DNA from: a virus
DNA: 64,000 nucleotides
Strand: one strand, 5' to 3'
Virus record (IMG/VR): IMGVR_UViG_3300043570_003132
Span: 54,726-118,725 of that record
In this document: positions 10,727-64,000 of the stretch, in pieces
How positions within the stretch are numbered: the first letter of the stretch is position 1
How the letters are laid out: each line of letters starts with the position of its first letter
Program-made: the position numbers and the translations under genes
The notes under the pieces: generated by a model
What the model was told of the DNA's origin: nothing
Seen by the model: the letters and a program-made list of their open reading frames with translations, nothing else
Databases searched by the model: none

Positions 10727-11029
10727 GTTTATTTTGTTTTATTTTATTAAGGTGCTTCTGCACAGAATGATTTATTGGATACTATTCCGGTATACGAAAT
10801 GTTTCCTGAATATGGTGTGGCCCCTACACTATTTAAAGAAAACGCATGAGTTTCATTTTCACCGGTATATACTGTTACTAAATTAGGATCTAAAAAGAAT
10901 TGTTCTACATTAAATGGTTGATCTGCTGTTGCATATACTGTAGTGTAGAAATCCTGACCGTAATTTTGACAAGCCAAACTCGATGATGTGTAAGATGGTC
11001 CTAATTGATAAGCATATGATGTTGCAGGT
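10727..11029 (-). repeat. Long dispersed repeat, copy A (partner 54693-54995)
   Basis: About 303 bases match 54693-54995 at a constant offset of 43,966 with no gap and roughly 95% identity by eye. The repeat covers the last about 90 codons of both host genes and also about 20 bases of noncoding sequence after the stops, so it is a DNA-level duplication or gene conversion tract. Confidence 0.85.
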
Positions 11030-13623
11030 ATTGGTGTTGCGGTTGGTTCTGCTGTTGGTTCTGCCGTTGGTGGGAATGGTGTTGGTGTTGGTGATTGTGT
11101 TGGTACGTTAGTTGGTACGTTTGTTGGTACTACTGTTGGTTCTGGCGTATTAGTTGGTACTGCTGTTGGTTCTGGTGTATTAGTTGGTACTGCTGTTGGT
11201 ACTGCTGTTGGTACAGGTGTTGATGTTGCAGGTAATGGTGTTGGTGTTGCTGTAGGTGCCGCCGGACAAGCTGTACAAGCTGTTTGTGCTGTTCCGGTTT
11301 CTGCGGAACCATTTCTAATAAACTCTCTTTCATCTGTACCATTAGAAACCCAGAATGTGGTGTTATTAGTCATATCACCATACACGTTACCATACAATGT
11401 GGATGATAAACCTTTTATTTGAGTTAAGTTACATAATGATGTACCCTGTACGGTAATATTAACATTACCATATTCACCACCAGCACATGCTGTTGGTCCG
11501 TTAACTAAACTAACAAATCCACTAAACGTAGTTTCAAATGGTGTTGGTTGTGGTGTTGGTGTTGCAGTTGCTGGTACAGGTGTATTTGTTGGTACTGCTG
11601 TTGGTACTGCTGTTGGTACGTTAGTTGGTACTGCGGTTGGTACTACTGTTGGTTCTGGTGTAACTGTTGGTGTTGCTGTTGGTACTACTGTTGGTACTAC
11701 TGTTGGTTCTGGTGTAACTGTTGGTGTTGCTGTTGGTACTACTGTTGGTTCTGGTGTTGCCGTTGGTCCTGGAATAGCAAGACAATTTGTTAAGCTAATT
11801 ATCGATCCTAAGTTGTCTGTATCTATTACATATTTATTTTCTTCATATTCAATTATAAAGTAATTTCCAATTCCAGTAAAATATATACTTGATAATTCCA
11901 CATCTGTATATAATACATCACCAACATTTAATGTTGAATTTATACTGTAAAATGTAGAATCAACTGTTTGATTTTGACACGCCGTATATGGATCTAAATA
12001 TGTCCCACCTAAATGTACTCCGTAACTATATAAAGGTATTGGTGTTGGTGTTGGTGTTTCAGTTGGTGTTGGGGTTGGTGTTGGTGATTCTGCCGCTGAA
12101 CAACTTACACAAGCATTGGTAAATGTAAATATTCCACTTGTTAATACCCCCTCTCTACTGTTTGTTCCATCGGAAAACCATCCTGGTGCATCTCCAGAAA
12201 ATATATCGGCATCGTATGTTGATAATTCAAATCCTGTTGAGTTACATAATGTTGATCCACTAATGAAATTTCCACCTCCTAATATGTTTATATATGTGTT
12301 TAAATTATTACATGTTTCGTATGCACCACTGAATCCCATAGATAACGTTGGTGGTGTTGGTGTTGGTGTTGGTGTTGACGTTGCTGGTAATGGTGTTGGG
12401 GTTGGTGATTCTGTGGGTGCGTTTGTTGGTATTTGTGTACTAGTTGGTTCTGGTGTTGGTGTTTCAGTTGCTGGTAATGGTGTTGGCGTATCTGTTGGAT
12501 TTGATGTTGATGTTGGTGTTGGTGTTGGTGTAACATCTGGAGGTAATCCACTGTTAAAACCAAAACTTTCCCAACTAACTGTATAATTATTTAAACCTGT
12601 TCCACTTACTGGCGAAAGTACCTCAATTGTTCCCAAGGTTGTTCCAGATTGAATTACATCATTATAGTTAATATCTGGATCAGTATAAAAATTACTAGTG
12701 AAAGTATTATTAGATGTTAGTAAATTACTTTGGAAAAATCCACCATCCGGTATGTTTATTGTTCCTGTGGTGGTTTGTATTGTCAAAGACCATTGAATGA
12801 TAACATCGTCCGTCACATTATAATCCGAATTTGGTGTAAAATATCCTCGTAATTTTCCCGCTGCGGTTTGATAAAAAACAACATTCGCCATAATATTATT
12901 TACCGGTAATGGTGTTGATGTTGCGGTAGGTGTTGGTGTTGGTGTGCTAGTTGGTATTGTTGTACCTGTTATTGTTGGTGTAGGAGTTGGTCCACTTACA
13001 TTTGTACAATTAACTAAACTATTTATTTCTGCATTTGGTCCTACATTTACAACGTATTTATTTACCCCATCTTCAATAATGTTATAATCTTGTCCTGATA
13101 AACCAAATATTAAAGTAAGTTCAGAATCACTATATAAGATATGTCCCGTATTTAACGATGGATATTCTGTGTAAACAGTAGTATTAACTAATCCATTTTG
13201 ACACGCAATATAAGGTTCAAAATATCCATTGAGATCTATTTGATAAGAATATGACACAATTGTTGGTGTAGGTGTTGGAGTACTTGTTGCTGGTATTGGT
13301 GTTTCTGTTGGTGTTTCAGTTGGTACTTCTGTTGGTACTCCACTTGGTAGTGGTGTACTTGTTGCCGGTACTGGTGTTGGTGTTGCCGTTGCAACAATTA
13401 CCGTTGGTGTTGGTGTTGCAGTTGCACATGGAATACTAAAAGTACAAGTTTGACTAAAACCAGTAAATAATAATGAATAATCTCCCATGTAATTTTCACT
13501 TACATAGTCGTAAGGGACAACATGTGACCCTAAGTCAATCGTTCCACCACTACAAGGTGAAAATGTGATAGTGGCAGTTTGTCCACTATAATTTGTTGTT
13601 AATATTCTAATCGATGTTGCCAT
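10747..13623 (-). CDS. Modular Cys-domain adhesin with Pro/Thr linkers, 1
   Basis: 958 residues. Residues 1-70 form an N-terminal domain ([22 protein letters not shown]...FSIPC) nearly identical to that of 13699-15531, probably the virion attachment end. The rest alternates TPTP/PEPT linkers with beta modules: an ACQN-type module (about 125-210), a larger beta module (about 240-362), an ETCNN-type module (about 420-510), a second ACQN-type module (about 527-615), a TACAGGEYGN-type module (about 690-785) and a terminal module (about 865-958). Each carries conserved Cys pairs, which suggests disulfide-stabilised receptor-binding domains. The terminal module is shared with 54713-60076 and the TACAGG module with 52705-54024. 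Confidence 0.75.
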   Translation of the reverse strand: MATSIRILTTNYSGQTATITFSPCSGGTIDLGSHVVPYDYVSENYMGDYSLLFTGFSQTCTFSIPCATATPTPTVIVATATPTPVPATSTPLPSGVPTEVPTETPTETPIPATSTPTPTPTIVSYSYQIDLNGYFEPYIACQNGLVNTTVYTEYPSLNTGHILYSDSELTLIFGLSGQDYNIIEDGVNKYVVNVGPNAEINSLVNCTNVSGPTPTPTITGTTIPTSTPTPTPTATSTPLPVNNIMANVVFYQTAAGKLRGYFTPNSDYNVTDDVIIQWSLTIQTTTGTINIPDGGFFQSNLLTSNNTFTSNFYTDPDINYNDVIQSGTTLGTIEVLSPVSGTGLNNYTVSWESFGFNSGLPPDVTPTPTPTSTSNPTDTPTPLPATETPTPEPTSTQIPTNAPTESPTPTPLPATSTPTPTPTPPTLSMGFSGAYETCNNLNTYINILGGGNFISGSTLCNSTGFELSTYDADIFSGDAPGWFSDGTNSREGVLTSGIFTFTNACVSCSAAESPTPTPTPTETPTPTPIPLYSYGVHLGGTYLDPYTACQNQTVDSTFYSINSTLNVGDVLYTDVELSSIYFTGIGNYFIIEYEENKYVIDTDNLGSIISLTNCLAIPGPTATPEPTVVPTATPTVTPEPTVVPTVVPTATPTVTPEPTVVPTAVPTNVPTAVPTAVPTNTPVPATATPTPQPTPFETTFSGFVSLVNGPTACAGGEYGNVNITVQGTSLCNLTQIKGLSSTLYGNVYGDMTNNTTFWVSNGTDEREFIRNGSAETGTAQTACTACPAAPTATPTPLPATSTPVPTAVPTAVPTNTPEPTAVPTNTPEPTVVPTNVPTNVPTQSPTPTPFPPTAEPTAEPTATPIPATSYAYQLGPSYTSSSLACQNYGQDFYTTVYATADQPFNVEQFFLDPNLVTVYTGENETHAFSLNSVGATPYSGNISYTGIVSNKSFCAEAP
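11266..11557 (-). repeat. Dispersed module repeat, copy A (partner 52957-53248)
   Basis: About 290 bases align with 52957-53248 at one offset (41,691), about 85% identical by eye. They encode the same Cys-containing adhesin module (FETTFSG(F/Y)VSLVNGPTAC...TACTAC) in two different genes. Confidence 0.75.
13434..13623 (-). repeat. Shared N-terminal domain repeat, copy A (partner about 15342-15531)
   Basis: The first about 63 codons of the gene at 10747-13623 match those of the gene at 13699-15531, over 80% identical at DNA level by eye. The following [14 protein letters not shown] linker is also shared. It looks like duplication of a virion docking domain. Confidence 0.75.
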
Positions 13624-13628
13624 ATCAA

Positions 13629-13636
13629 TATAAATA
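13629..13636 (-). promoter_or_regulatory. TATTTATA late promoter candidate
   Basis: Exact TATTTATA on the minus strand, 5 bases before the ATG at 13623 and just after the terminator at 13651-13679. The terminator-motif-start arrangement recurs at 10519, 16067, 26805, 40739 and 54060. Confidence 0.6.
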
Positions 13637-13644
13637 GTTTATTT

Positions 13645-13679: not shown

Positions 13680-13698
13680 ATTATTTTTATTTGTTGTT

Positions 13699-15531
13699 TT
13701 ACGCACATTGACCATCAGTTCCATTTATGAATACACCACCTGTGATGTCCATTACTTGTGAGAATGTTTGTCCACCTGAAGCCGCAATACTTTGTGGTCC
13801 GTTAAATGCGGTAGATACTGTTAAACATCCATCAGGAGCAACATCGGCTATATGTACAACGACCGTTTGTGAACCTGTTAACGGAACTGTTCCTGAGAAC
13901 CCATCTCCAGGACTTCTTGGAAACACATCATTTGTTGTAAGTGATAAACCTCCAATTATAACACTTGTTATTGCACCACCAAAAAATCCATTACTACCTG
14001 TGACTTCAGTTGAAACTGCAGGTTCAGGTGTTGCAGTTGGTGGGAATGGTGTTGGTGTTGGTGATTGTGTTGGTACGTTAGTTGGTACTTGTGTTGGTTC
14101 TGGTGTTGGTGGGAATGGTGTTGGTGTTGGTGATTGTGTTGGTACGTTAGTTGGTACTTGTGTTGGTTCTGGTGTATTAGTTGGAACTGCTGTTGGTATT
14201 GCTGTTGGAACCGCCGTTGGTATTGCTGTTGGTATTGCTGTTGGTATTGCTGTTGGTATTGCTGTTGGTTGTGGTGTATTAGTTGGTATTGCTGTTGGTT
14301 GTGGTGTATTAGTTGGTACTGCTGTTGGTTGTGGTGTATTAGTTGGTACTGCTGTTGGTTGTGGTGTATTAGTTGGTACTGCTGTTGGTATTGCTGTTGG
14401 TATTGCTGTTGGTATTGCTGTTGGTATTGCTGTTGGTATTGCTGTTGGAACTGCTGTTGGAACTGCTGTCGGTGGTGGCGTTGGAGGTAACGGTGTACTA
14501 GTTGGTACTTGTGTCGGAACTGCTGTTGGTACTACTGTTGGTACTACTGTTGGTACCGGTGTTGCTGGTAATGGTGTATCAGTTGGTACCGCTGTTGGTA
14601 TTGCTGTTGGTATTGCTGTTGGTAAAGGTGTATCAGTTGGTACGTTAGTAGGTAAAGGTGTATCAGTTGGTACGTTTGTTGGTACGTTAGTAGGTAAAGG
14701 TGTATCAGTTGGTACGTTAGTAGGTAAAGGTGTATCAGTTGGTACGTTAGTAGGTAAAGGTGTATCAGTTGGTACGTTAGTAGGTAAAGGTGTATCAGTT
14801 GGTACGTTAGTAGGTAAAGGTGTATCAGTTGGTACGTTAGTAGGTAAAGGTGTTGCCGGTAAAGGTGTTACTGTTGGTGTTGCTGTAGGTTCTGCTGTTG
14901 GTTCCGCTGTAGCTGGTAATGGTGTTGCTGTAGGTTCCGCTGTTGGTATATTTGTTGGTAATGGTGTATCTGTTGGTACCGGTGTTGCCGGTATTGGTGT
15001 ACTAGTTGGAATATTAGTCGGCTCTATTGTTGGTTCTGGTGTACTAGTTGGTACATCTGTTGGTACCGGTGTTGCCGGTATTGGTGTACTAGTTGGTACG
15101 TTAGTTGGTAATGGTGTATCAGTTGGTACCGCTGTTGGTATATTTGTTGGTTCCGGTGTTGCTGTAGGTACTTGTGTTGGAATATCTGTCGGTGTTGGTG
15201 TATCTGTTGGTACAGGTGTTGGTATATCTGTAGGTAATGGTGTATCTGTTGGTACAGGTGTTGGTATATCTGTAGGTAATGGTGTTGGTGTGGCGGTTGC
15301 AACAATTACCGTTGGTGTCGGTGTTGCGGTTGCACAAGGTATACTGAAAGTACATGTTTGACTAAAACCAGTAAAGTATAATGAGTAATCTCCCAAATAG
15401 TTATCACTAATATAATTGTATGGAATAACATGTGAACCTAAATTGATCGTTCCTCCACTACAGGGTGAAAATGTAATTGTAGCAGTTTCACCACTATAAT
15501 TTGTTGTTAATATCTGAACCGTTATTGACAT
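13699..15531 (-). CDS. Pro/Thr-stalk adhesin with VNTR, 2
   Basis: 610 residues. Residues 1-66 are the same attachment domain as in 10747-13623 ([14 protein letters not shown]...FSIPC). Residues about 67-500 are an uninterrupted stalk of short Pro/Thr repeats such as [14 protein letters not shown] and TPQPT, likely an extended, stiff rod. Residues about 500-610 form a globular tip: [24 protein letters not shown]..., a [13 protein letters not shown] strand and a C-terminal [12 protein letters not shown]. The stalk contains seven near-perfect copies of a 10-residue unit. Unlike its neighbours it has only one terminal globular module. Long reading frames on the plus strand across the repeats are composition artefacts. 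Confidence 0.72.
14621..14849 (-). repeat. 30-bp tandem repeat (VNTR) in adhesin stalk
   Basis: A 30-base unit is repeated seven times almost without change; the second copy carries an extra 12 bases. In the coding frame each unit encodes [10 protein letters not shown]. Units are identical at DNA level, not only at protein level, indicating recent expansion by slippage or unequal recombination. The length is a multiple of three, so copy changes keep the frame. Confidence 0.9.
15342..15531 (-). repeat. Shared N-terminal domain repeat, copy B
   Basis: Partner of 13434-13623: encodes the first about 63 residues of the 610-residue adhesin, over 80% identical at DNA level by eye. Confidence 0.75.
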
Positions 15532-16113: not shown

Positions 16114-19100
16114 TTAGAACGTTCCACCGTCTATTGTATTTGTGAATGTTAAACTACCATCTGAGGTTTTATAACCTAATATTGTAGTCACCACATCACT
16201 TGTATCTGTTGTCGGTACTTCACCAAATATGTCGTTAGCATTTTTAAATGTAACATTTGATCTTGTACTACTTATCAAGTCATTACCGTTAGTTGATACT
16301 TTTAATGTACCTGCTACCACTGTGTTTCCTGATACCGATTCAACTGTGAATTTATCTGTATTGAATTGTAATGTTGTTCCACTATATTTCAATAAACTAT
16401 CACCGATTGTGTTGTCAGAAGATGCAATTGGGAATGTTCCACTTGTTAAACTTGTTTCACTTCCTAATGTTCCTGCGGTCGTTCCAATTACTTTACTTGA
16501 ATTGTTAGAACCATCAACTGTTAACCAATCATTATTTACTGAGTCCCATAGTAAAGAACCTGATTGTCCTATTGAACCTGAATCATATCCACTAATACCT
16601 GCGTATCTTTGGAATGGTGAGTAAGCATTTACTAAGATAATATTATCACCTAATTCAACTGTATTTGATTGAATACTTACGTTTGTTGATGAACCTAATA
16701 CTTGTAAGTTTCCTGATACAAATAAATTACCACCTAACATTGTTGCTGAACCTGAACTTACTGTTAATGAACCTGTAATTGATGTGTTAGCATTTACTTG
16801 TAGACCTGCTGCAGTTACCGATGCTGTTACCGCACCACTTGCAATCTTATCTAATTGTAATCCTGTTACACCACTTGCTGGTATATTATAAAGTCCCGCA
16901 CCATCACCAATGAACGAACCTGTGAATACAGAAGAAGTTACTGGTTGGTTAAATTTAACACTTAAGTTTGTTTCCCAAACTGATCCTGTTAAAGCGAATA
17001 TACTGTCTCCTGAAGATCCTGATGTTCCTGATGAACCTGAAGAACCTGAAGAACCTGCTGATCCTGATGAACCACTAGATCCTGAAGTTCCTGCTGTTCC
17101 TGAACTACCTGATGTACCGCTTGAACCACTTGTACCTGATGAACCATTACTACCTGAAGAACCTGATGTTCCCGCTGTTCCTGAAGAACCGCTAGATCCT
17201 GAAGTTCCTGATGAACCTGAAGAACCACTAGTTCCTGATGAACCATTACTACCTGATGTTCCGTCAGATCCTGAAGATCCTGAAGTTCCTGATGAACCAC
17301 TAGATCCTGAAGATCCTGAAGAACCACTAGATCCTGAAGTTCCTGCAGTTCCTGATGTACCACTAGATCCTGATGAACCTGAAGTTCCTGAAGATCCTGA
17401 TGAACCTGAAGAACCGCTAGAACCACTTGTTCCTGCTGTTCCTGAAGAACCGCTAGATCCTGAAGTTCCTGATGAACCTGAAGATCCACTTGTTCCTGAT
17501 GAACCATTACTACCTGATGTTCCGTCAGATCCTGAAGATCCTGAAGTTCCTGATGAACCTGCTGTACCTGAAGAACCGCTAGATCCTGATGAACCATTAC
17601 TACCTGATGTTCCTGATGTACCTGAAGAACCATTACTACCACTTGTTCCTGATGTTCCGTCTGATCCTGAAGAACCTGATGTACCTGAAGTACCTGCTGT
17701 TCCTGAAGAACCTGATGTACCTGCTGAACCTGATGAACCTGATGAACCTGATGTACCCGCTGATCCTGAAGATCCTGAAGTTCCACCTGATCCACTTGTT
17801 CCTGATGAACCATTACCACCAATAGTAGCAATTACTGTACCTGTTTGTGCTTCATTAAAGTATACTTTTAAGTTATTACTATCAATAACTTCAATTTCTG
17901 TTGGTATAACAACTTTATCTGAACCGTCAAACACATTAATTGCAGGATATTTGTATCCTAAATTGTGGTTGAATGACCATGTTGTCGATGCTGAACCAAT
18001 TACTAACGTTTTAGTTTGACCTGAAACAATAACCGCGTTTTCAGCGTATATTGCGTAAGACGATGTTCCTGCGAATTGAGAATTAGAACCTGAAACATAT
18101 GTGTTGAACGCTGTTTCATCTAATTTACCCGTTCCAACTGTTACACCGTTCAACATTAATGAACCTGTGATGTTAACGGAACCTGTGAATGAATGTACAT
18201 CGTCTTGTGTGTCACCAAATTTGGTTGAACCTGATTGATAAAGAACTGAAGATGATACTAATGTAATGTTTAATTCTTTCGCTGTAAGTGTACCATCAAT
18301 AAATGTATCTCCATTTACTCTGAATGTTCCGTCAGATGCGATAGATGCACTTACTGAACCACTTACAATTTTATTTAATTCTAATCCTGTTACACCCGAA
18401 GCTGGAATGTTATATAAACCTGCACCGTTTCCAACAAATGAAGACGATACCACTGAAGCGGTTACCGCTCCAACAACTCTTACTGGATTTGTTGTTGACC
18501 ATATTGAACCTGTTAATGCAAATAAACTATCTCCTGAAGTACCATCACTACCTGAAGAACCACTTGTTCCTGAAGAACCACTAGATCCTGAAGTACCTGC
18601 CGTTCCTGATGAACCACTAGATCCTGAAGTTCCTGAAGATCCTGAAGTACCACTAGATCCGTTAGATCCTGATGAACCACTTGTTCCTGCAGTTCCCGAT
18701 GTACCCGCCGATCCTGATGATCCTGATGAACCATCACTACCACTAGATCCTGATGTACCTGCTGTTCCTGAAGATCCTGAAGATCCTGAAGTACCACTAG
18801 ATCCGTTAGAACCTGAAGAACCACTTGTTCCTGCTGTTCCTGATGAACCACTAGATCCTGATGTTCCTGATGAACCACTAGATCCTGATGTTCCTGTTGA
18901 TCCTGAAGAACCATCACTACCACTAGATCCTGATGTACCTGCTGTTCCTGAAGATCCTGAAGATCCTGAAGTACCACTAGATCCGTTAGACCCACTAGAA
19001 CCTGATGAACCATCACTACCACTTGTTCCTGATGTACCTGCAGTTCCTGAAGATCCTGAAGATCCTGAAGTTCCTGATGAACCGTTAGACCCACTAGAAC

Positions 19101-19725
19101 CTGATGAACCTGAAGTTCCCGCAGTTCCTGAAGAACCACTAGATCCTGATGTACCCGCAGATCCTGATGAACCTGAAGAACCACTAGATCCTGAAGTACC
19201 AGCTGTTCCTGATGAACCACTAGATCCTGATGAACCTGAAGTTCCTGAACTATTTGATGTATATTCAGAACCGTTTATAAATAAACTTCCTGTAACATTA
19301 ATTGAACCACTAACGTTAACTTGACTACCAAACGTTGCTGTTGTACCTGTTAAATTAGTAATTGTAACACCACTGATAGTATTACCTTCAATGTTACCAA
19401 CCAAATTCATGGTTGTATTACCAGCAATACCGGTGTCTAATATATATAATTTCTTTTCGGCAGTAGCGTAGAATGGTACACCATCTAAACCTGAACCATA
19501 TGTACCAGCAGCAATTGATGGTGCGTTTGCTCCTTGATAAATCTTGGATGCTGCCCTAAATGCTCCTGCAACTCCTTCATCCGATAATTCCGGAGAACCA
19601 ATAAATATAAAAGGTCCTTGTAAATTACCAATCGAACCGGTTGCGATGATTAATTCACCGTTTCTTGCCGTTGTGTTTTTGAGGGTTGATATCGAACCCC
19701 TCCTGTGTTTAATGATTTGTGCCAT
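16114..19725 (-). CDS. Giant tail fibre with collagen-like Gly-X-Y triplets, 2
   Basis: 1203 residues. Residues 1-155 form a distinct N-terminal region (MAQIIKHRRGSISTLKN..NGELIIATGS, then a YATAEKKLYILDTG motif), probably the virion attachment part. Triplet blocks (GTS, GSS, GSD, GTA; Gly every third residue, no proline) lie at about 158-398 and 638-905. Between them come a DSLFALTGSIW module, a GDGAGLYNIPASGVTGL module (the analogue occurs several times), a SVLYQSGSTKFGD module and a TWSFNHNLGYKYP module shared with the other fibres. Residues about 905-1203 form a tip with another GDGAGLYNIPASG copy. A trimeric, collagen-like fibre is inferred from the triplets. Confidence 0.8.
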   Translation of the reverse strand: MAQIIKHRRGSISTLKNTTARNGELIIATGSIGNLQGPFIFIGSPELSDEGVAGAFRAASKIYQGANAPSIAAGTYGSGLDGVPFYATAEKKLYILDTGIAGNTTMNLVGNIEGNTISGVTITNLTGTTATFGSQVNVSGSINVTGSLFINGSEYTSNSSGTSGSSGSSGSSGTAGTSGSSGSSGSSGSAGTSGSSGSSGTAGTSGSSGSSGSNGSSGTSGSSGSSGTAGTSGTSGSDGSSGSSGSNGSSGTSGSSGSSGTAGTSGSSGSDGSSGSTGTSGSSGSSGTSGSSGSSGTAGTSGSSGSNGSSGTSGSSGSSGTAGTSGSSGSDGSSGSSGSAGTSGTAGTSGSSGSNGSSGTSGSSGTSGSSGSSGTAGTSGSSGSSGTSGSSGSDGTSGDSLFALTGSIWSTTNPVRVVGAVTASVVSSSFVGNGAGLYNIPASGVTGLELNKIVSGSVSASIASDGTFRVNGDTFIDGTLTAKELNITLVSSSVLYQSGSTKFGDTQDDVHSFTGSVNITGSLMLNGVTVGTGKLDETAFNTYVSGSNSQFAGTSSYAIYAENAVIVSGQTKTLVIGSASTTWSFNHNLGYKYPAINVFDGSDKVVIPTEIEVIDSNNLKVYFNEAQTGTVIATIGGNGSSGTSGSGGTSGSSGSAGTSGSSGSSGSAGTSGSSGTAGTSGTSGSSGSDGTSGTSGSNGSSGTSGTSGSNGSSGSSGSSGTAGSSGTSGSSGSDGTSGSNGSSGTSGSSGSSGTSGSSGSSGTAGTSGSSGSSGSSGSSGTSGSSGSSGTSGTAGTSGSSGSSGSSGSSGSSGTSGSSGSDGTSGSNGSSGTSGSSGSSGTSGSSGSSGTAGTSGSSGSNGSSGTSGSSGTSGSSGTAGTSGSSGSSGSAGSSGSSGSSGTSGSSGDSIFALTGSVWETNLSVKFNQPVTSSVFTGSFIGDGAGLYNIPASGVTGLQLDKIASGAVTASVTAAGLQVNANTSITGSLTVSSGSATMLGGNLFVSGNLQVLGSSTNVSIQSNTVELGDNIILVNAYSPFQRYAGISGYDSGSIGQSGSLLWDSVNNDWLTVDGSNNSSKVIGTTAGTLGSETSLTSGTFPIASSDNTIGDSLLKYSGTTLQFNTDKFTVESVSGNTVVAGTLKVSTNGNDLISSTRSNVTFKNANDIFGEVPTTDTSDVVTTILGYKTSDGSLTFTNTIDGGTF

Positions 19726-19746
19726 CTACTTTGTGTTTGTTTAGTT

Positions 19747-19754
19747 TATAAATA
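19747..19754 (-). promoter_or_regulatory. TATTTATA late promoter candidate
   Basis: Exact TATTTATA on the minus strand, 21 bases before the ATG at 19725. No terminator hairpin was seen between it and the preceding stop at 19824. Confidence 0.5.
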
Positions 19755-19823
19755 CTTAATTTTTACCAATCTTCGAGTTATTTCTATCTATTTGTAATAT
19801 ATTTTTATTATTAATTTGTTTTT

Positions 19824-22800
19824 TTAAAAACCACCTAAATCCAATACAATATTATTTTGTTCTTGTGTTATTACGTTTTGTCCTCCCATTGATATTGAAG
19901 CAGAGATAATTTGTGATTGAATTTGAGCTTGCATCATTGCCATTGCACCTGATATAATAAGTGATTCTCTTAATGGATCAGTTGATGTTAATGTTGTTGT
20001 TCCACGTACTGTTAAATCTCCATCAATAATAACTGAACCTGTTGTACGTAATGAACCTGTAAAATCATGTTTATCATCTAATGTATCACCGAACTTTGTT
20101 GACCCTGATTGATAAAGTATTGAAGATGTTACATAATCAATACGTAATTCTTTTGCTGTGATTGTACCATCAATTACTACATCTGTATTAACTTTTAATT
20201 TTCCATCAGCTAATGATGCACTTACACTACCACTAACAATTCTATCTAAGTTAAGTCCTGTAATTCCTGATGATGGGATATTATATAATCCTGCACCATC
20301 ACCTGTAAATGAACCGCTAATTGTTCCGTTATTTACAGTTAAATCACCTGTGTTAATTTCTAAATCACTATTTGTTAAATCAACAAGACCATTGAAAACA
20401 TGTAAATTAGATCCACTTGTTAAATACAATGATGAACTGTCGGTCATTATTGTATTACTATCGGTAATTCCTAATTGAGATGTAATATTTAACGATCCCG
20501 TTATTTCTACATCATTTGTTGTCGTCCATGTGCCAGGTGTTGTTTCGGCAAATAAACTATCTCCGCTAGATCCTGATGTTCCACTTGTTCCCGATGTTCC
20601 ACTTGTTCCTGATGTACCTGCAGTTCCTGATGAACCTGAAGTTCCGCTTGTTCCAGCCGAACCCGATGAACCACTAGTACCTGATGAACCATTACCACCG
20701 ACAGTAGCAATTACTGTACCTGTTTGAGCCTCGTTAAAATATACTTTTAAGTTATTACTATCAATAACTTCAATCTCTGTTGGGATTACTACTTTATCAC
20801 TTGCATCAAATACGTTAATTGCAGGATATTTGTATCCTAAATTGTGATTGAATGACCATGTTGTTGAAGCTGAGGATACATTTAATGTTTTAGTTTGACC
20901 TGAAACAATAACTGCGTTTTCTGCATATATCGCGTATGATGATGTTCCTGCAAATTGTGATGTATTTGAACCTGTATATGTGTTAAACGCCGATTCATCT
21001 AATTTACCGGTACCAATTGCTTGTCCGTTTAATGTTATTGAACCTGTTATATTAACTGAACCCGTAAAATTATGTGTATCGTCTAAAGTATCTCCGAATT
21101 TGGTGGAACCTGATGTATATAAAACTGAAGAGGTTACATAATCAATGTGTAATTCTTTCGCGGTCAAAATACCATCAACATATAATGATCCTGTAATTGA
21201 TGTATTGGTGTTAATATGTAAACCATCTAAATCAATAGATGCTGTATTACTACCACTACTAATTAAATTTAATTGTAAACCTGTAACTCCTGATGCTGGT
21301 ATGTTAATTAAATTACTACCATCACCATAAATGTAAGCTCCACTTATTATTCCACCGTCAACATATATGTTTGAACCACTCGTCATGTATAATGACGAAC
21401 TATCTGTCATTATAATATTAGCATCAACAACTCCTAATTGGGAAGTTATTGATAATGATCCAGTAATTTCTACGTCATTTGTTGTTGCCCAAACGCTACC
21501 CGTTAGAGCAAATAAACTATCCCCTGAAGTACCATCCGAACCTGAAGAACCCGATGTACCTGAAGTACCACTTGTACCTGAAGTTCCGTCTGAACCACTA
21601 GTTCCTGAAGTACCACTTGTACCATCAGAACCACTAGATCCTGAAGTACCACTTGTACCATCGCTACCTGAAGAACCTGATGTACCCGCACTACCACTTG
21701 TACCTGACGTACCATCACTACCTGAAGTACCCGCAGTTCCTGAAGAACCATCTGAACCCGATGTACCCGCAGTTCCTGAAGAACCACTAGTTCCTGATGA
21801 ACCGTCTGAACCTGAAGTACCACTAGATCCGTTTGATCCTGATGAACCACTAGTTCCTGATGAACCATCTGTACCGTCAACACCTGATATACCCGAAGTA
21901 CCATCACTACCTGAAGAACCGCTAGTACCACTAGATCCGTTCGAACCTGAAGAACCACTAGTTCCTGATGTACCATCAGAACCACTAGATCCTGAAGTAC
22001 CTGAAGATCCTGATGTACCATCACTACCACTAGAACCTGAAGATCCATCTGAACCACTTGAACCTGAAGATCCTGAAGAACCTGAAGAACCATCCGATCC
22101 ACTAGATCCTGAAGAACCTGAAGATCCTGATGTACCATCACTACCACTAGATCCTGATGAACCTGATGTACCATCACTACCACTTGTTCCGGATGTCATT
22201 GCTGAGAAAGAAACTCCGTCTATTGAAAGACTACCACTTACAATATTAACTGATCCTGATATAAAAACCGAACCCGTAAACTCGTGTGTGTCGTCCGATG
22301 TATTACCAAATTTATTTGAACCTGATGTGTAAAGAACTGATGACGTTACATAATTAATATTTAATTGTTTTGCGGTTAATATACCATCAATATACGTGTC
22401 TCCATTAACCCTGAATGTTCCATCGGATTGAATAGACGCACTTACCGAACCACTTACTATTTGATTTAGTGCTAAATTTGTTACACCACTTGCCGGTATA
22501 TTATATAATCCCGCACCATCACCAAAGAAAGCTGCAGTAACAAAACCACCATTTTCAACAATGATATTACTACCACTTGTTAATATAAGTGATGAACTGT
22601 CAGTTAAAAATAAACTTGAATCAAATACACCTGAACCGTTGGATACTATTAATGAACCCGTAATAGATGTGTTGGTGTTAATATTAAATCCATCTAAACT
22701 AACCGAAGCCGTATTACTACCACTTGTAATTTTATTTAATTCTAATCCTGTTACACCTGAAGCTGGAATATTATATAATCCCGCACCATCACCAAAGAAG

Positions 22801-25052: not shown

Positions 25053-25054
25053 TT

Positions 25055-48822: not shown

Positions 48823-49764
48823 CTAATCTATTTGTTTCATTTTATATTCACTTAAGTTTCCCTGTAAATCGGCAATATCTTTATCCCCTTCTAATCTTAT
48901 ACTCCACACTTTCCCCATTAGTTTTCCACAATTCAATCTATGGTATAATCTTTCTTGATCATTCCACGCATCAGGATCTAGTACTATAACTATTTTTTTT
49001 GCATTATTGTAGAGTTTCATAAATAAATGTTCACTCATAAACTTTCCCAACATTGGAATTGCATTGGGAATAAAGATGCTATCAAACGCACCTTCCACAA
49101 TGTATATTGGTTCATCCCAATTAATTAAATGCTCATTGAAAATAATAATCTCCTTTTGTGCTTCGGGGTTCATGTATTTTCTCTTTGTCTTTTGTAAATA
49201 AGAACGAGCAATGAAATACGTTAATCTTTTATTCTCATCATAGGATGGAATTATAATTCTACTCTCATATGGTCCACTATAACAAAATCCAATATTATAA
49301 ATTTGTAACATCAAATCAGTGATGTTTCTTTTTTTAATGTAATTGTATGCCTGCTTGTATTGTGGGGTCATCTTTAAACCCATACTAGCATCTTTAAATG
49401 GAATAAACTCTTTAGGTAATTTTACAGGTTTGTATGTTCTTGCAGCAATCTCCTCATCATCTTCAGGTTTTAATAAAAGATATTTCTTTAATTGTTTTGG
49501 ATTACCAAACTTCTTAATTAACTTATAGATTGATCCGTGGGTATTATGTGTCTCAGCACATACCCAACATTTATAAACACCATATTTGTAATTGATTTCA
49601 AGGTTTCCCTTACCGTCTCCTTTATCTAATCCTTTAATTTCATGTGAACACACAGGACAATCAAAGGACACTTGGTACCTATAATCATTATGATTTTTAT
49701 AGTCACCAAATATATCTTCTAAAATATCAAATACGGCAGAATAGTCTACTTCTTGGGTGTTCAT
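48823..49764 (-). CDS. DnaG-like DNA primase with TOPRIM domain
   Basis: 313 residues from the ATG at 49764; a further upstream reading frame to 49836 exists but would run through a terminator and an RNA-like locus, so it is not used. Zinc-finger cysteines lie at CPVC (36-39) and CWVC (66-69). The TOPRIM part contains YIVEGAFDS (222-230, Glu224) and VLDPDAW (261-267). It synthesises RNA primers for phage replication. About half the length of bacterial DnaG, with no helicase-binding C-terminal domain. Confidence 0.82.
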   Translation of the reverse strand: MNTQEVDYSAVFDILEDIFGDYKNHNDYRYQVSFDCPVCSHEIKGLDKGDGKGNLEINYKYGVYKCWVCAETHNTHGSIYKLIKKFGNPKQLKKYLLLKPEDDEEIAARTYKPVKLPKEFIPFKDASMGLKMTPQYKQAYNYIKKRNITDLMLQIYNIGFCYSGPYESRIIIPSYDENKRLTYFIARSYLQKTKRKYMNPEAQKEIIIFNEHLINWDEPIYIVEGAFDSIFIPNAIPMLGKFMSEHLFMKLYNNAKKIVIVLDPDAWNDQERLYHRLNCGKLMGKVWSIRLEGDKDIADLQGNLSEYKMKQID

Positions 49765-49791
49765 GATTATAATATAATAAAAAAGTATGAT

Positions 49792-49827
49792 AAAAAAAAA
49801 TGGGAGCCGGACACCACGCCGACTCCC
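49792..49827 (-). terminator. Strong intrinsic terminator of RuvC/late unit
   Basis: The minus strand forms a 9-bp stem (GGGAGTCGG with CCGGCTCCC, one T-G pair), an 8-base loop and a run of nine T. Plus coordinates: 49802-49810 and 49819-49827, T run 49792-49800. It is GC-rich in an otherwise AT-rich region. Confidence 0.85.
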
Positions 49828-49860
49828 TCCAACCAAACTTGTATTTCTACAAGTCCCGTC
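49793..49860 (-). ncRNA. Candidate small structured RNA
   Basis: The locus has a TATTTATA promoter-type motif at 49865-49872, then a GC-rich 5' end (GGACGGG on the minus strand), a perfect 7-bp hairpin with a GAAA tetraloop (ACTTGTA-GAAA-TACAAGT; 49837-49854), a GGTTGGAGG linker and the terminator stem ending in nine T. No start codon follows the motif. A GGAC near the 5' end could pair with GTCC beside the terminator loop. Alternatively it is a compound terminator of the RuvC gene. No family recognised. Confidence 0.45.
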
Positions 49861-52704: not shown

Positions 52705-54024
52705 TTAATCACAAGGACAAGTTACGTTTGTAAATGATGAGAAGTATATTGCTGATGGATAGTTTGTTGCCATATAAGCACTATCTTTATTCGTGTCTAT
52801 TCTTGAACAACATTCACTATTTATCGTCACAAAACTTAAATTACCCGCACTATAATCTACATAATATATTGCTGTTAAATCACATCTCTCATACACATCA
52901 TATGTTTGCGGTGTAGGAGTTGGTGGTAAAGGGGTTGAAGTTGGTGGTGCTCCTGAACAAGCTGTACAAGCTGTTTGTGCTGTTCCTGTTTGTGCCGAAC
53001 CATCTCTCATAAATTCTCTTTCATCCGTACCATCAGAAACCCAAAACGTGTCATTAACTATCATATCACCATATACGTTACCATACATTGTGGAAGATAA
53101 ACCTTTTACTTTTGTTAAATTACATAAAGACGTACCTACAACCGTAATATTAACATTACTATATTCACCACCAGTACATGCTGTTGGTCCGTTAACTAAA
53201 CTAACATAACCACTAAACGTAGTTTCAAATGGAGTTGGTTGTGGTGTTGCAGTTGCCGGTAAAGGAGTTGGTGTTGTAGGACAACTACAAGATGTTGCAC
53301 TATAATTTATAAATGAAATAGTTGCACCAACTTGGGATAATGAACCATATTGCAAACAATCGTTTATTACTTGTGGTCCAATACCAAATGTTAAATAAAT
53401 TGTCTCACCGCAACAATCAATATATCTAATATCACCAGCACTATCAACTTCAAATCCTACAGATATTACACACTCAGGTGTTGGGGTTGGGGTTACAGTT
53501 GCCGGTAATGGGGTTACAGTTGCCGGTAATGGGGTTACAGTTGCTGGTAATGGGGTTACAGTTGCTGGTAATGGGGTTACAGTTGCTGGTAATGGGGTTA
53601 CTGTTGCCGGTAATGGTGTTACTGTTGGTGTATTTGTGGGAGTTGCCGTTGGTACAACTGTTGGTGTGGGAGTTGGTGTGGGAGTTGGTGTAGTCGGCAT
53701 TCTTATTGTTAAATTATTATAATCAACACATTCAACACATATAACAGGGTCACCATCTTTTCCATTAAATTCTGATGGTACCACTCTAATTGTTTTTATT
53801 CCCTCCGGAACAACTACATATGTACCATTTAAACTTGATCTTGGAATATTGGAATATCCAACTAAAGGAAAATATTTTGACGAGTCAGATCCTGAAAGGG
53901 ATCCTGTACATAAAGATCCTGAATTATTAGTACAATCATCTAAACTACCTGTACAAGCATATAAATCAACATTTAATATTGATACACCTAAAGTAAATCC
54001 TGTTAATCGTATTGTATATGACAT
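52705..54024 (-). CDS. Modular Cys-domain adhesin with Pro/Thr linkers, 3
   Basis: 439 residues. Residues 1-110 form an N-terminal domain with Cys residues (LYACTGSLDDC, SLCTGS) and IRVVPSEFNGKDGDPVICVEC. A linker with six near-identical ATVTPLP units follows (about 135-172), then a module beginning ECVISVGFEVDSAGDIRYIDCCGET (about 175-240), the TTFSGYVSLVNGPTACTGGEYSN module (about 257-350) shared with 10747-13623, and a short terminal Cys module (VYERCDLTAIYYVDYSAG..., about 370-439). The modules occur in other genes in other orders. It has its own terminator-motif-start signal. Confidence 0.72.
   Translation of the reverse strand: MSYTIRLTGFTLGVSILNVDLYACTGSLDDCTNNSGSLCTGSLSGSDSSKYFPLVGYSNIPRSSLNGTYVVVPEGIKTIRVVPSEFNGKDGDPVICVECVDYNNLTIRMPTTPTPTPTPTPTVVPTATPTNTPTVTPLPATVTPLPATVTPLPATVTPLPATVTPLPATVTPLPATVTPTPTPECVISVGFEVDSAGDIRYIDCCGETIYLTFGIGPQVINDCLQYGSLSQVGATISFINYSATSCSCPTTPTPLPATATPQPTPFETTFSGYVSLVNGPTACTGGEYSNVNITVVGTSLCNLTKVKGLSSTMYGNVYGDMIVNDTFWVSDGTDEREFMRDGSAQTGTAQTACTACSGAPPTSTPLPPTPTPQTYDVYERCDLTAIYYVDYSAGNLSFVTINSECCSRIDTNKDSAYMATNYPSAIYFSSFTNVTCPCD
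52957..53248 (-). repeat. Dispersed module repeat, copy B
   Basis: Partner of 11266-11557, offset 41,691, about 85% identical by eye; encodes the TACTGGEYSN-type Cys module. Confidence 0.75.
53470..53615 (-). repeat. Short tandem repeat in adhesin linker
   Basis: An 24-base unit encoding ATVTPLP-type residues is repeated about six times nearly identically. Copy-number change would alter the linker length while keeping the frame. Confidence 0.75.
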
Positions 54025-54692: not shown

Positions 54693-54995
54693 GTTTATTT
54701 TGTTTTATTTTATTAAGGTGCTTCTGCACAGAATGATTTATTGGATACTATTCCGGTATACGAAATGTTTCCTGAATATGGTGTGGCTCCTACACTATTT
54801 AAAGAAAACGCATGTGTTTCGTTCTCACCAGTATAAGTAGTTACTAAATTAGGATCTAAAAAGAATTGTTCTACATTAAATGGTTGATCTGCTGTTGCAT
54901 ATACTGTAGTGTAGAAATCCATACCGAAATTATCACAAGCCATACTCGATGATGTATAAGATGGTCCTAATTGATAAGCATATGATGTTGCAGGT
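54693..54995 (-). repeat. Long dispersed repeat, copy B
   Basis: Partner of 10727-11029, offset 43,966; encodes the last about 93 residues of the 1787-residue protein plus about 20 bases after its stop. Confidence 0.85.
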
Positions 54996-57900
54996 GGTGG
55001 TGTATTAGTTGGTGTTGGTGTTGCCTCCTCCGGTACAGGTGTTGCTGTTGCTGGTAATGGTGTTGCGGGTATTGGTGTTGCTGTTGCTGGTAATGGTGTC
55101 GCCGTTGCCGGTACAGGTGTTGCCGTTGCAGGTAATGGCGTTGGTGTTGGACAACTTACACAACCCTCTTGTGGATAAGCTCTATTTGTTGATCCCGATT
55201 TTTGATAATATCTTGATTGTCCGAATCCTTCACTTAACCAAAAATACCCGTTTGGATCGATTTCTGCTTGAATAATACCACCTTCTATATAACTATTTGC
55301 GTCACACATTGTTCCATAAAATCCATTAAATTGGTATGCAAAATATGGTGTAAAACTTCCACCATTACATGCATCATAACCACTATCTAAACTAATATAA
55401 GCGGTAAACGATGTTGCAGGTATTGGTGTTGCTGTTGCTGGTAATGGTGTCACAGTTGCTGGTAATGGTGTCACAGTTGCTGGTAATGGTGTCACAGTTG
55501 CTGGTAATGGTGTTGGTGTATTAGTTGCAGGTTGAGCACATAATGAACTACAACTTGTAACACCTAATGCAAACATAGTTGTTAATAAAGCAATCTGTGG
55601 AGTTGTTGAATTAACGACCTGAAATATATAACCTGTTTCAGGGTCTAATCTAAACCTTGCGTTTAACACTAATTCTATATCATTAGCAATAACAATAGTT
55701 TCAACATATTCACAACTACCATTTTGTAAACATTGATATCTATCCGCCTCATAATAGAAATTAGGGTCAGGTGTTGGTGTTACTGTTGGTACATTAGTTG
55801 GTATATTGGTTGGTATATTGGTTGGTATATTGGTTGGTACGTTAGTTGGTATATTGGTTGGTTCTGGTGTATTAGTTGGAACCGCCGTTGGTATTGCCGT
55901 TGGTACGTTAGTTGGTACATTAGTTGGTATATTGGTTGGTATATTGGTTGGTACTGCTGTTGGTACGTTAGTTGGTAATGGTGTTGGTGTGCTGTAGATA
56001 ACATCAACATCAACATTAAAGTTACAATCTGGCGTTGGAGTTGGAGTTGGTGTTGTAGTGTTAGTAGGTGTTGGGGTTGGTGTATTTGTTGCTGGTAATG
56101 GTGTAGGGGTTGGTGTATTTGTTGCGGATTCCGGTAATGGTGTTGGAGTATTTGTATTTGTTGGTGTAGGAGTTGGTGTACTATAGATAACATCAACATC
56201 AACATTAAAATTACAATCTGGTGTTGGAGTTGCGGTATTTGTTGGTGTTGGAGTTGCGGTATTTGTTGGTGTTGGAGTTGGGGTACTATAGATAACATCA
56301 ACATCAACATTAAAATTACAATCTGGTGTTGGTGTAGGTGTTGCAGTGTTAGTAGGTGTAGGAGTTGGTGTACTATATACGACTAAGACATCAACATTAA
56401 AGTTACAATCTGGTGTTGGGGTTGGTGTTGCAGTGGATGTTGGGGTTGGTGTTGGGGTACTATAAAATATTTCTACGTCAACAGCAAACTCACAATTTGG
56501 TGTGGCTGTTGGGGTTGGTGTTGGAGTTGGAGTGCTAGTAACAACTAAAACATCGACTAAGAAATTACAATTTGGTGTTGGGGTTGGAGTAGGTGTTGGG
56601 GTGCTAGTAACAACTAAAACATCGACTAAGAAATTACAATTTGGTGTTGGGGTTGGAGTAGGTGTATTTGTTGCAGGTGATGCAGTTACTGTTGGTGTTG
56701 GGGTGGAAGGTAATGGTGTTGCAGTTGCAGGTAATGGTGTTGGTGTTGGTGAAGGAGTTGTGGTAGGTGTTGCGGTTGGTGTTGGTGTGTTTGTTGGAGT
56801 TGGTGTTGGTCCTGGCTCATATATCGCTAATCCTCCACTAAATCTACAATCTTTTACATCATTTTGACCAATTGACACATATCCATAATCTAAATAATTT
56901 TTTACTGTACAATCATTTGGGCCATATTTGTAAGACGTAAATTTAATTTTTTCACGTCCTTCATTATCTATGAAAATTTCATATGATAGTATTTTTTGTT
57001 TTGTTGTTCCCGTAATTGATGAATTACCAATTTCAGTTCCATATTGTGTATTTTTACCTTCTCCATCTATAGTTGATCCAGAATAGGTGTTAATATATGT
57101 AATTGTATTTTGTATCGCCCTTTTCCACAATATTTTTAATTGTGTGTCGTATGATAAATCATTATAATCTACAAGATCATTAGTGGTACCTCCACTATAT
57201 AAATTAATACTAACACCATCCGTTGTTATAGTATTGTCATTATTAATTATTGTTGTTCCAGTTAATGAGGTGGCACCACTTATTAAAACATATGTACATC
57301 CCGTTACATTTGTATTCCAAGTATCTGTCTTCCAAGTACCTGTAGTTTCATAAAGACGAGTATATATTGTACCTGATGTTGGATTACTTGTATTATTGTT
57401 TGAACTTTTTAATACTCTAAAATTAATACTTTCTGAATCGTAAATAGTATGGGTTGAACCAGATGATATAATTTCATCAAACGAATCTTTATTTAATGCA
57501 GATATATTACCTGGATCTGTCATACCAGAATAAACTTTACCGTCAATTTCAAATACCGGATAAAGTTTAACATAACCGTCAAATTTCGTTTCTCCAGATT
57601 CATCATTTTCAATACTAAATCCAAGCTCATTGTCCGCCTGTTTTATTAAATAACCAAAATAACTTGTATATCCTGTTGGTATTTCTAAATCAAAATTAAT
57701 ATGGTCTTCCGTTTCTGTAGGTTGGCATCCATATCTATATTGATATTTTGATCTACCAAAAATATTATTTGAAATTAAATTACCTCCAGTCCATAAAGTT
57801 GTTGCAGGAATAATTTGATCAATAACACTTGTCCAATAAGGACTCATTTTTTCAATAAACAAATTAACATCGGGAAAACTATATGGTGTGAAATCTGTAT

Positions 57901-61005: not shown

Positions 61006-61011
61006 TAAATC

Positions 61012-62439: not shown

Positions 62440-62443
62440 TTTA

Positions 62444-64000
62444 TTATATTACATCAAATGTTATACTTGCATATTTTCCATTATCATATGAACTTGTTAT
62501 TGTGAAATTATAAACTCCTTCACCCAATGTTACATATTGTGTACTGTCAGGTGCTGTTAAAGCTGGCGATGTGGCATTTAAAAATATATCACCAGCAACA
62601 AAACCACTATTCGAACCACCACTTGTTGTTCCACCAAAAACATTTAAAGTAACTTTTACACTATAACTAGCATATACTGTTAACGTTCCTACCGCATAAC
62701 CATTATTAGAATATCCTGCATTTGTTGATCCTGTCACACTATATGGTAAAGGAGTTGGTGTATTTGTTGGTGGTAAAGGAGTTGGTGTTGCGGTTATTGG
62801 TCCTGCTGTTGGGGTTTCTGTTGGTGGTAAAGGAGTTGGTGTATTTGTTGGTGGTAAAGGAGTTGGGGTTGGGGTTGGTGCACATGATATTTCACCATAA
62901 AACACGGATGAAATTGATGCAATTACTCCTGATAATGAATTATTTTGAATACAATCATTAATTACTTGTGGTCCAATACCAAATGTCTCGATAACTTCGG
63001 TACCCTCACAATTAAAATATCTAACAGTTCCACCAAAATCAACATCAAAACTTACTGACGTTACACAAGGACTTTCTGTAGGTGTTGGGGTTATTGTAGG
63101 AATTACTGTGGCCACAGGTGTAGGTGTTGAAGTTGGGAAAGGTGTTGACGTTGGTCTAGGTGTCGCCGTAACTCCACCGATAGGTGTTGGAGTTGGGGTT
63201 GATACTGGTAATAATACTCCACCTCCTTTTTCGTAGAATGTTATACTATCAGTCGTTGTATAACCTGTGCCTATTCTACCTAACTTTGTTGTTCCCGTAT
63301 ATCTATATATTTGATACGTTCTTTCATAATGATCAAAATCAATTTGATAATACATATCTTTTTCTTCTGTTATATTATAACTTGTTGTTTGACCTGAATT
63401 TATAAAATCTAATATCTCACCTCTATCCGCATTGAAAAATTTTGCCGTCATGAAAAATGTATTCATTCCATGATAAAAATTTCTATTATAGGTTATTTGA
63501 TTTGGTATTGTAAATGTTTGACCTGTCCAACCAATTAACGTTGTTCCTGTTGTTGGTATATTAACTTGTGTTATTTCATTATTTTCATTTGTAAATAATA
63601 TAGTTTGTATTGTAGTTCCAGTTCCAAAAACATATTGATCTAATGTTGTTGTTCCGCTTAAATTTGTGTCGGTTAAAACACTCTCATTATCAAACCAAAA
63701 CAAATACATGTTTTCTTTGTTTCGATAATTTGAACCCGTAAAAACAGGTACATATATGTTATACCCATAGTTACTACCTGTATGAAAATATTTTTCACCT
63801 AAGGGTAATGCTAAATTTTTAGAATTTATTAATCTTCTATTTTGTCTTGTCGGTGGCTCACATGTTAAAACATAATTTGTTATACTACCAGGTGTTTTAT
63901 AAAACTCTAACCTAAAAAAACTTTCAATTGACTGTTTTGTCATCAACTGATTTTCTTGTGTTGATATACCTACAGGATTATAATCTAAAACATAATTTGG
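62444..64000 (-). CDS. Structural protein with Pro/Thr linker adhesin end (5' end beyond window)
   Basis: The reading frame is open from 62444 to the window edge. In-frame codons upstream of the TTG at 63946 continue as ..NYVLDYNPVGISTQENQL, so the gene begins outside. The visible part has a structural N-terminal segment (SIESFFRLEFYKTPGSITNYVL, NKENMYLFWFDN), a VSTPTPTPIGGVT linker near 250, an SPCVTSVSFDVDFGGTVRYFNC module (about 290-355 from 63946) homologous to that in 52705-54024, another linker and a C-terminal beta domain (about 405-500). It combines a baseplate-type protein with an adhesin end, like the 1787-residue protein. Confidence 0.68.
   Translation of the reverse strand, partial: PNYVLDYNPVGISTQENQLMTKQSIESFFRLEFYKTPGSITNYVLTCEPPTRQNRRLINSKNLALPLGEKYFHTGSNYGYNIYVPVFTGSNYRNKENMYLFWFDNESVLTDTNLSGTTTLDQYVFGTGTTIQTILFTNENNEITQVNIPTTGTTLIGWTGQTFTIPNQITYNRNFYHGMNTFFMTAKFFNADRGEILDFINSGQTTSYNITEEKDMYYQIDFDHYERTYQIYRYTGTTKLGRIGTGYTTTDSITFYEKGGGVLLPVSTPTPTPIGGVTATPRPTSTPFPTSTPTPVATVIPTITPTPTESPCVTSVSFDVDFGGTVRYFNCEGTEVIETFGIGPQVINDCIQNNSLSGVIASISSVFYGEISCAPTPTPTPLPPTNTPTPLPPTETPTAGPITATPTPLPPTNTPTPLPYSVTGSTNAGYSNNGYAVGTLTVYASYSVKVTLNVFGGTTSGGSNSGFVAGDIFLNATSPALTAPDSTQYVTLGEGVYNFTITSSYDNGKYASITFDVI

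Follow-up and report, generated by a model that had tools for sequence, protein, structure and literature searches.

How might a phage with a large genome keep several adhesins evolving simultaneously? This question is raised by seven genes of an uncultured virus within a stretch of 64,000 nucleotides (the window), which forms the end (positions 54,726 to 118,725) of the linear, 118,725-base IMG/VR virus record IMGVR_UViG_3300043570_003132; the record stops at window position 64000, and all coordinates below are window positions unless another locus is named. A sequence-only reading of this DNA had described the genes at 10747, 13699, 15544, 52705, 54108, 54713, and 62444 (here g10, g13, g15, g52, g54a, g54b, and g62) as a library of interchangeable cysteine-containing modules joined by Pro/Thr linkers and had interpreted it as a mix-and-match system for host-range change; the analyses below partly confirm the observation and partly support the interpretation. 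All seven genes are present as minus-strand open frames, and Pro/Thr linkers were found in each of them, constituting 15 to 73% of the protein (g10, 38%; g13, 73%; g15, 68%; g52, 30%; g54a, 15%; g54b, 24%; g62, 21%). With a probability of about two-thirds, the genes encode virion surface adhesins of a T4-type jumbo phage, whose linker-joined modules are exchanged between phages and one of whose modules has been copied between genes. Modules are shared between the genes, their strings differ on homologous anchors, swapped blocks have their ends in linkers, and conversion has occurred between g10 and g54b. The proteins would be located on the virion surface, probably in association with the tail or baseplate, each fixed to the virion by its N-terminal anchor and exposing beyond its Pro/Thr linkers a series of small modules, most of which contain cysteine and whose likeliest ligands are surface glycans or other receptors.

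Module strings on homologous anchors

Phage receptor-binding proteins are well known to exchange their C-terminal domains while the N termini are conserved, closely related phages having a near-identical N-terminal part and nonhomologous, exchanged C-terminal domains (Smug et al. 2023, PMC10684548; statements on this and the other cited papers refer to excerpts of them). Accordingly arranged pairs were compared here, consisting of complete, nonidentical proteins with homologous anchors at a DNA identity of at least 80%; proteins truncated at the end of a locus were excluded, and three N termini were allotted to anchors by hand. The module strings differed in 66 of the 72 anchor-matched pairs and agreed in six, and the differing pairs included some with 95 and 97% anchor identity. 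Thus, a conserved N-terminal anchor with an exchanged C-terminal part, by which mosaic phage receptor-binding proteins are recognized, was found in close relatives of the window phage, and comparison with related phages, a check that the sequence-only reading had itself proposed, did not reveal one identical module order in all of them. For instance, the g54b scaffold (95.4% DNA identity) carries the string F6-B-A in the window lineage and F10-A in locus L003, while the g62 scaffold (97.4%) is followed by C-F20 in the former and by C plus a unique segment in locus L009; g52 (94.6%) has the same string in both lineages. Moreover, the two-module block F39-F40 stands behind anchor F37 in locus L015 and behind anchor F9 in locus L006, and one gene with the g10-type anchor (family F1) on a 336-kb contig (locus L072) combines module A of g10, module F6 of g54b, and the C-terminal module of g13, which the window splits among three genes.

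The swapped blocks could be delimited by comparing L001, a contig of the same virus from another metagenome, with L003. These two loci are largely collinear over ∼23 kb, mostly at 91 to 96% DNA identity, and two module blocks are replaced between them, namely, the terminal part of g62, which starts within a linker at nucleotide 1485 (residue 495), and an internal block of g54b (Table 1), whose ends at residues ∼1435 and ∼1684 both lie in linkers and downstream of which collinearity resumes at 95%. All three internal junctions therefore fall within Pro/Thr linkers, within the precision with which alignment ends can be located in repeats. In addition, 21 exact matches of at least 24 bp were found between different genes of the seven, 14 of them wholly in linkers, and none among seven control genes. 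The linkers may be both protein spacers and DNA-level joints for the exchange of blocks between related phages. The proposed mix-and-match organization is borne out by the differing pairs, by these blocks, and by the g10/g54b conversion described below. A more far-reaching version, in which cocirculating T4-type jumbo phages would share a community-wide library of dozens of small adhesin cassettes, with repetitive Pro/Thr linker DNA as a universal homologous joint that lets each phage's own recombination place any module behind any anchor and thereby change its surface combinatorially with no dedicated switch, is tentative and somewhat doubtful. As a separate observation, the first 7.7 kb of L001, including g62, are 96% identical to L015, while the g54b region is 75 to 91% identical, a drop that points either to recombination extending past the modules or to a mosaic contig.

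These data might equally be described as ordinary tail-fiber mosaicism, that is, slow, selected horizontal exchange plus point divergence of receptor-binding domains with the linkers as passive spacers, to which we give even odds; it overlaps the adhesin exchange proposed above, and the two estimates are not mutually exclusive. Consistent with it, domain shuffling is widespread among receptor-binding proteins (PMC10684548), BACON repeats of tail-associated proteins have moved as separate domains (PMC6949934), and module strings are stable within near-identical records, while the occurrence of the same families behind several unlike anchors in one genome and the copy between genes exceed a single fiber-tip swap, to an extent that leaves mosaicism standing. 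The window proteins resemble the mosaic receptor-binding proteins in having domains common to otherwise unrelated proteins (PMC10684548). What is different is that one pool of many small modules, absent from Pfam, serves several unlike anchors per genome, in arrays with Pro/Thr joints throughout and with one conversion within the genome; the terms "linker," "gene conversion," and "paralog" do not occur in the main text of that paper. The BACON tandem repeats of crAss-like and other gut phages, which are tail associated and in two lineages have spread largely by single-domain transfer, are likewise small repeated domains, carbohydrate binding by name, in tail-associated proteins (PMC6949934). 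Unlike them, the window proteins are without a Pfam match at an E value of up to 1, have many module families per genome, and carry Pro/Thr linkers.

Module families and the chance alternative

Each protein was split at its Pro/Thr-rich stretches, and the resulting segments were subjected to all-versus-all BLAST. Among the 21 window segments counted (the g54b and g62 scaffolds and pieces shorter than 30 residues being excluded), 13 fell into four types: A with five copies (m1, m4, and m6 of g10, the C terminus of g54a, and m3 of g54b), B with four (m3 and m5 of g10, m2 of g52, and m2 of g54b), C with two (m1 of g52 and m1 of g62), and an N-terminal type shared by g10 and g13. The claim of a few module types oversimplifies the picture: the other eight segments lack a partner in the window, g15 has no full module, and g13 contains neither A, B, nor C and shares only its N-terminal domain. 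Links were strong between g10 m5 and g52 m2 (E = 6e-59) and between g10 m6 and g54b m3 (E = 1.6e-63) and weak between g10 m3 and B (5.5e-4), so that m3 is unpartnered at an E value of <1e-6; the two halves of A are linked only at 0.005 within the window, with stronger intermediates in relatives.

A wider set comprised 84 nonredundant Pro/Thr-linked proteins from the window and the fetched loci, from which frames shorter than 90 amino acids, frames with too few Pro/Thr motifs or very high in G, L, or V, and identical or contained proteins had been dropped; this filter missed g54a, and one member (25092, plus strand) is a spurious antisense frame. After removal of segments shorter than 30 amino acids or with more than 30% Pro plus Thr, the set yielded 282 segments, including anchors and scaffolds, in 136 single-linkage families, 47 of which have at least two members, several two-member families consisting only of near-identical orthologues. 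Of the 33 nonanchor families with at least two members, 21 occur behind at least two anchor types, or 13 by a stricter hand count restricted to anchors that form families themselves. Homologous fragments common to otherwise unrelated proteins, the second feature by which mosaic phage receptor-binding proteins are recognized, are therefore present as well. The modules are also rich in cysteine overall, which accounts for 3.2% of residues in the 248 segments of up to 260 residues, compared with 0.43% in seven other window proteins; cysteine conservation, claimed for the modules in general, does not extend to g10 m2 and g62 m2, which have none.

Among the same 248 segments, 449 pairs were linked at an E value of <1e-6 and 60% coverage, and three residue-shuffled controls gave 0, 0, and 0 pairs; module sharing between genes is not chance. 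That the resemblance is accidental or an assembly artifact of low-complexity DNA is accordingly of almost negligible probability: although contigs G001 and G008 stop inside the g13 repeat, which indicates that such repeats break assemblies, the matches lie in nonrepetitive modules, and the window sequence is matched at 100% over 14 to 18 kb by two contigs of separate metagenomes. Chance and artifact are thus refuted for the module families, while single junctions could be wrong.

The relationship between the types was also considered. Profile comparison linked A well to families F7 and F15 (94 and 86%). A single superfamily of A plus B is possible but gained no support from profiles: BLAST single linkage joins the two via intermediates, and their structural models are similar in the order of elements, yet the A-B profile probability was 3.6%, and no A-B link above 30% appeared in the wider profile comparison. 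The small docking domains (anchors F37 and F45, the N domain of g54a, and the N termini of L074 and L048) may be distantly related to one another, with profile pairs at 33 to 95%.

Gene conversion, stability, and mechanism

Copying within the genome was indicated by the last A module of g10 and that of g54b, 44 kb apart, which are 94.0% identical to each other in the window and 91.4% identical in record G003. Meanwhile, the g54b copies of A in the window and G003 are only 79.9% identical, while the g54b scaffold is 94.8% identical. Of 21 informative sites in A, 19, which form one run, group the paralogues within a genome, none groups the orthologues, and two are crosswise. Part of the conversion tract is an exact 95-bp copy at the ends of both genes (Table 1), beyond which the sequence following g10 is similar to its counterpart in G003. 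Because the copied stretch after the stop codon resembles the sequence behind g54b in both genomes, we infer that copying went from g54b to g10. At least one module has thus been copied between genes of one genome by gene conversion, in addition to the exchange between phages.

No such change was seen among near-identical records. Module variation within the population, expected by the sequence-only reading, did not appear in records G000, G001, G005, and G008, which agree where compared; since G001 and G008 end inside g13, g10 could be compared only with G005, and an assembled consensus cannot reveal minority variants. The only change between near-identical contigs was a 42-bp linker difference between L075 and L077 (another lineage, 99.9% identical), which share their module string. 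A programmed switch by which a single population would rearrange its modules, such as a diversity-generating retroelement or DNA inversion, might be suspected from the multiple similar modules in one genome, from linker tandem repeats that could misalign, and from this 42-bp difference. Nevertheless, the four records have an identical arrangement where compared, and neither a reverse transcriptase (RVT_1) nor a serine recombinase (Resolvase) was found in any of seven records, which are linear and possibly incomplete, the search being aimed at these two families and not at tyrosine recombinases or inverted-repeat switches. Such a switch is therefore very improbable.

Because reverse transcriptase and resolvase were both absent from the seven records, ordinary recombination is the likely mechanism. 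The engine would be the phage's own T4-type recombination, with RecA-family and SbcC/SbcD-like proteins as its probable pathway and no need for a dedicated switch. Homologous recombination between coinfecting relatives and between paralogous modules, coupled with selection for new surface specificities, could then produce the strings observed. A RecA-family gene, presumably UvsX-like, occurs in four of five records (three above the family cutoff), and SbcC-like, SbcD-like, and primase genes lie at 41484 to 43820, 47143 to 47967, and 48823 to 49836, between the two adhesin clusters of the window.

Predicted function and genomic context

To characterize the modules structurally, A and B were modeled singly with AlphaFold2. 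Both models were confident (B, predicted local distance difference test score of 88.9 and predicted template modeling score of 0.79; A, 89.6 and 0.77); each is a small beta fold that has a helix close to its beginning, and the elements of the two follow one another in a similar succession. Foldseek returned no match in the PDB at an E value of ≤0.001 for either model. The best VIA-align 2 matches, PilZ 4i86_B for B (Z, 4.3; root mean square deviation, 3.1; 73 residues aligned) and 2fhq_A for A (Z, 3.4; 3.6; 69 aligned), have Z values below 5 and may reflect a common arrangement only. Against viral predicted structures, B had one match at an E value of ≤0.001, A0A6J7WGP7 from an uncultured Caudovirales phage (E = 1.1e-5). 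Profile searches of the PDB gave no match for B at E values of up to 10 or for the scaffold at E values of up to 1, and five for A, all at 0.27 or more. Similarly, no Pfam family, BACON, Ig-like, and Laminin_G_3 (PF13385) included, matched any of the seven proteins at an E value of up to 1; the module alignments gave only single-member matches of other families (best E, 0.012 for B with 19 members and 0.1 for A with 12 members), and in PHROGs only g10 matched, best in a mostly-linker stretch.

By anatomy and analogy, the modules are interpreted here as glycan- or receptor-binding units on putatively tail-associated anchors, and module swaps probably alter what the virus adheres to. The host-range change proposed by the sequence-only reading is hinted at only by lectin-fold domains in distant relatives: Laminin_G_3 domains above the Pfam cutoff (PF13385) occur in three of nine Pro/Thr-linked proteins of relatives, behind anchors not found in the window. 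In haloarchaeal hafunaviruses, a tail-fiber adhesin gene lies in a hypervariable region that is linked to host range (PMC8651126); variation there lies in hypervariable segments of one gene, whereas the window phage has a multigene module pool. Alternatively, the modules could be structural spacers, or capsid or tail decorations whose ligands are environmental glycans or particles and not the receptors of a host. The very long linkers (443 residues in g13), the many copies, and the lectin-like domains of relatives would suit such a role, as would the gut-phage Ig-like adhesins, which are modular surface proteins whose domain variation alters binding, and which bind epithelia rather than bacteria (PMC13370021). 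In contrast to these Ig-like domains that target epithelial cells, the window proteins are without a Pfam match and belong to an uncultured T4-type jumbo phage. Whole-module replacement on nearly identical scaffolds suggests selection on the bound target, and we consider the spacer or decoration role unlikely.

Several points weigh against exchangeable virion adhesins as the explanation. The 72 pairs are not independent, and the 66 differing ones include six with a linker-only protein and seven with g13, which is paralogous to g10; for anchor type F22, the module is retained in all three pairs, which make up half of the six agreeing pairs. Linker ends are expected from any whole-module exchange and do not prove that linker DNA is a preferred site, and L001 and L003 also differ outside the linkers: gene 61012 and the g54b scaffold both contain parts that do not align, and identity is 83% over the end of that scaffold and the first linkers behind it. 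As to conversion, the g10 copies of A in the window and G003 are 90.5% alike, which makes just one of the two loci appear strongly displaced, and the run permutation for the A tract was modest (P = 0.012). The site analysis found no conversion for B (g10/g52, 22 orthologue and 0 paralogue sites) or C (g62/g52, 33 and 1); as both group by orthology, conversion is not a general feature, having been detected for one module pair. The constancy of the near-identical records belongs here too. Finally, the location on the virion and the binding by modules are deduced rather than observed, neither modeled module having a clear fold partner; the "baseplate-type" N-terminal proteins of the sequence-only reading find a faint counterpart in the g54b scaffold, whose only tail match, to the phage tail domain TIGR02242, stays under the cutoff (best E, 0.091; 4 of 10 scaffold members).

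Regardless of function, the locus is an instance from nature where sequence alone suffices to tell anchors, joints, and putative binding modules apart and where exchange is readable from close relatives. It makes testable whether repetitive linker DNA promotes the exchange of protein modules, adds small beta modules that no Pfam family covers, and suggests how large-genome phages may keep several adhesins evolving at the same time. By titles and abstract starts, no paper on Pro/Thr-linked module pools in jumbo phages was recognized among the open-licence PMC papers listed, which is not proof of absence; term searches of PMC12619734 and PMC7674155 brought up nothing relevant either.

To place the virus, relatives were collected from viral contigs, with 17 loci for the g54b scaffold, 22 for the g10 N-terminal anchor, and 20 for module B, the contigs overlapping between the lists. 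Three contigs from other metagenomes (L001, L002, and L007) represent the same virus: L001 and the contig of L007 are 100% identical to the window over 14 to 18 kb, and L002 encodes the same proteins. The record with L007 (G005, 217 kb) has g10, g13, and g15 identical to those of the window, with g13 at 610 residues in both. A full-size T4-type gp23 capsid gene is present in G005, G009 (336 kb), and G010 (317 kb), and capsid hits were obtained in four of five records overall, that of G003 being a 98-amino-acid fragment only; no gp23-type gene was found in G000, a partial record, G005 being a longer record of the same virus. The nearest isolates, Microcystis phage Mel-JY01 and Flavobacterium phage immuto, have capsids ∼38% identical. 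A tblastn search of 50,697 phage records gave no match for g10, g52, the g54b scaffold, or one anchor and two modules of relatives, and a search of bacterial genomes yielded no relative of module B. An A-like query had one 24-residue match (50%) in a Hyphomonadaceae metagenome-assembled genome, which was too short to be used, and no host was derived from it.

Coordinates of the genes and modules are collected in Table 1. The TTG start of g62 at 63946 is an artifact of the record end at 64000, the L001 orthologue having 601 residues and not 500.

TABLE 1 Genes, modules, and exchanged or copied segments of the window
Feature	Position	Strand	Remarks
g10, 958 aa	10747..13623	-	N domain, then A, unique, B-like, A, B, and A modules in Pro/Thr linkers
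g10 N-terminal anchor (family F1)	13435..13623	-	81% identical to g13 N domain; 22 loci in viral contigs
g10 module A (m1)	13006..13248	-	By BLAST; modeled as 12988-13266
g10 m2	12550..12900	-	No cysteine; no partner in window
g10 m3, B-like	12097..12333	-	Weak link, E 5.5e-4
g10 module A (m4)	11779..12024	-	By BLAST
g10 module B (m5)	11269..11520	-	87.6% DNA identity to g52 B over 274 bp
g10 module A (m6)	10750..11016	-	94.5% DNA identity to g54b A over 274 bp
g13, 610 aa	13699..15531	-	F1 anchor, 443-residue Pro/Thr linker, C domain without window partner
g13 linker	14014..15342	-	Near-perfect 30-bp tandem repeats at 14252-14389 and 14678-14853
g13 C-terminal module (family F32)	13702..14013	-	Also ends F1-anchored gene of 336-kb contig (L072)
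g15, 160 aa	15544..16026	-	Short N terminus, Pro/Thr linker, short CDITY repeats; no full module
g52, 439 aa	52705..54024	-	Anchor F9, C, B, and C-terminal module without window partner
g52 module C	53296..53463	-	By BLAST
g52 module B	52957..53211	-	Modeled with flanks as 52933-53229
g54a, 185 aa	54108..54665	-	Small docking domain and module A
g54b, 1787 aa	54713..60076	-	Scaffold of ~1084 residues, short CNFxVDV units in linkers, modules m1 (F6), B, and A
g54b block m1 + B	55025..55772	-	Replaced in L003; both ends in Pro/Thr linkers
g62, truncated by record end	62444..63946	-	Scaffold, C, and C-terminal module (F20); 601 aa in L001
g62 C-terminal part	62444..62765	-	Replaced by B plus another module in L003; junction in Pro/Thr linker
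95-bp exact copy, g10 end = g54b end	10727..10821 and 54693..54787	-	Spans stop codon and ~20 nt beyond; part of conversion tract

In the g54b linker stretch at 55754 to 56824, units of the CNFxVDVxV type are repeated, with one cysteine each and too short to be folded modules. Outside the window, locus L060 of G005 encodes Pro/Thr-linked proteins of 992, 107, and 582 residues (L060 positions 3690 to 6668, 8157 to 8480, and 8506 to 10254), most segments of which have no relative in the 84-protein set. Near the first adhesin cluster, collagen-like TSGSSG repeat genes at 6908 to 10435 and 16114 to 26755 match tail-fiber PHROGs through low-complexity or repeat matches, and two 735-kb records of uncultured phages (LR756501 and LR756503) match 117 bp at ∼21924 to 22040 with 80.7% identity. 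A DNA methyltransferase-like gene (PHROG 56, E = 5.1e-43) occupies 29383 to 30396.

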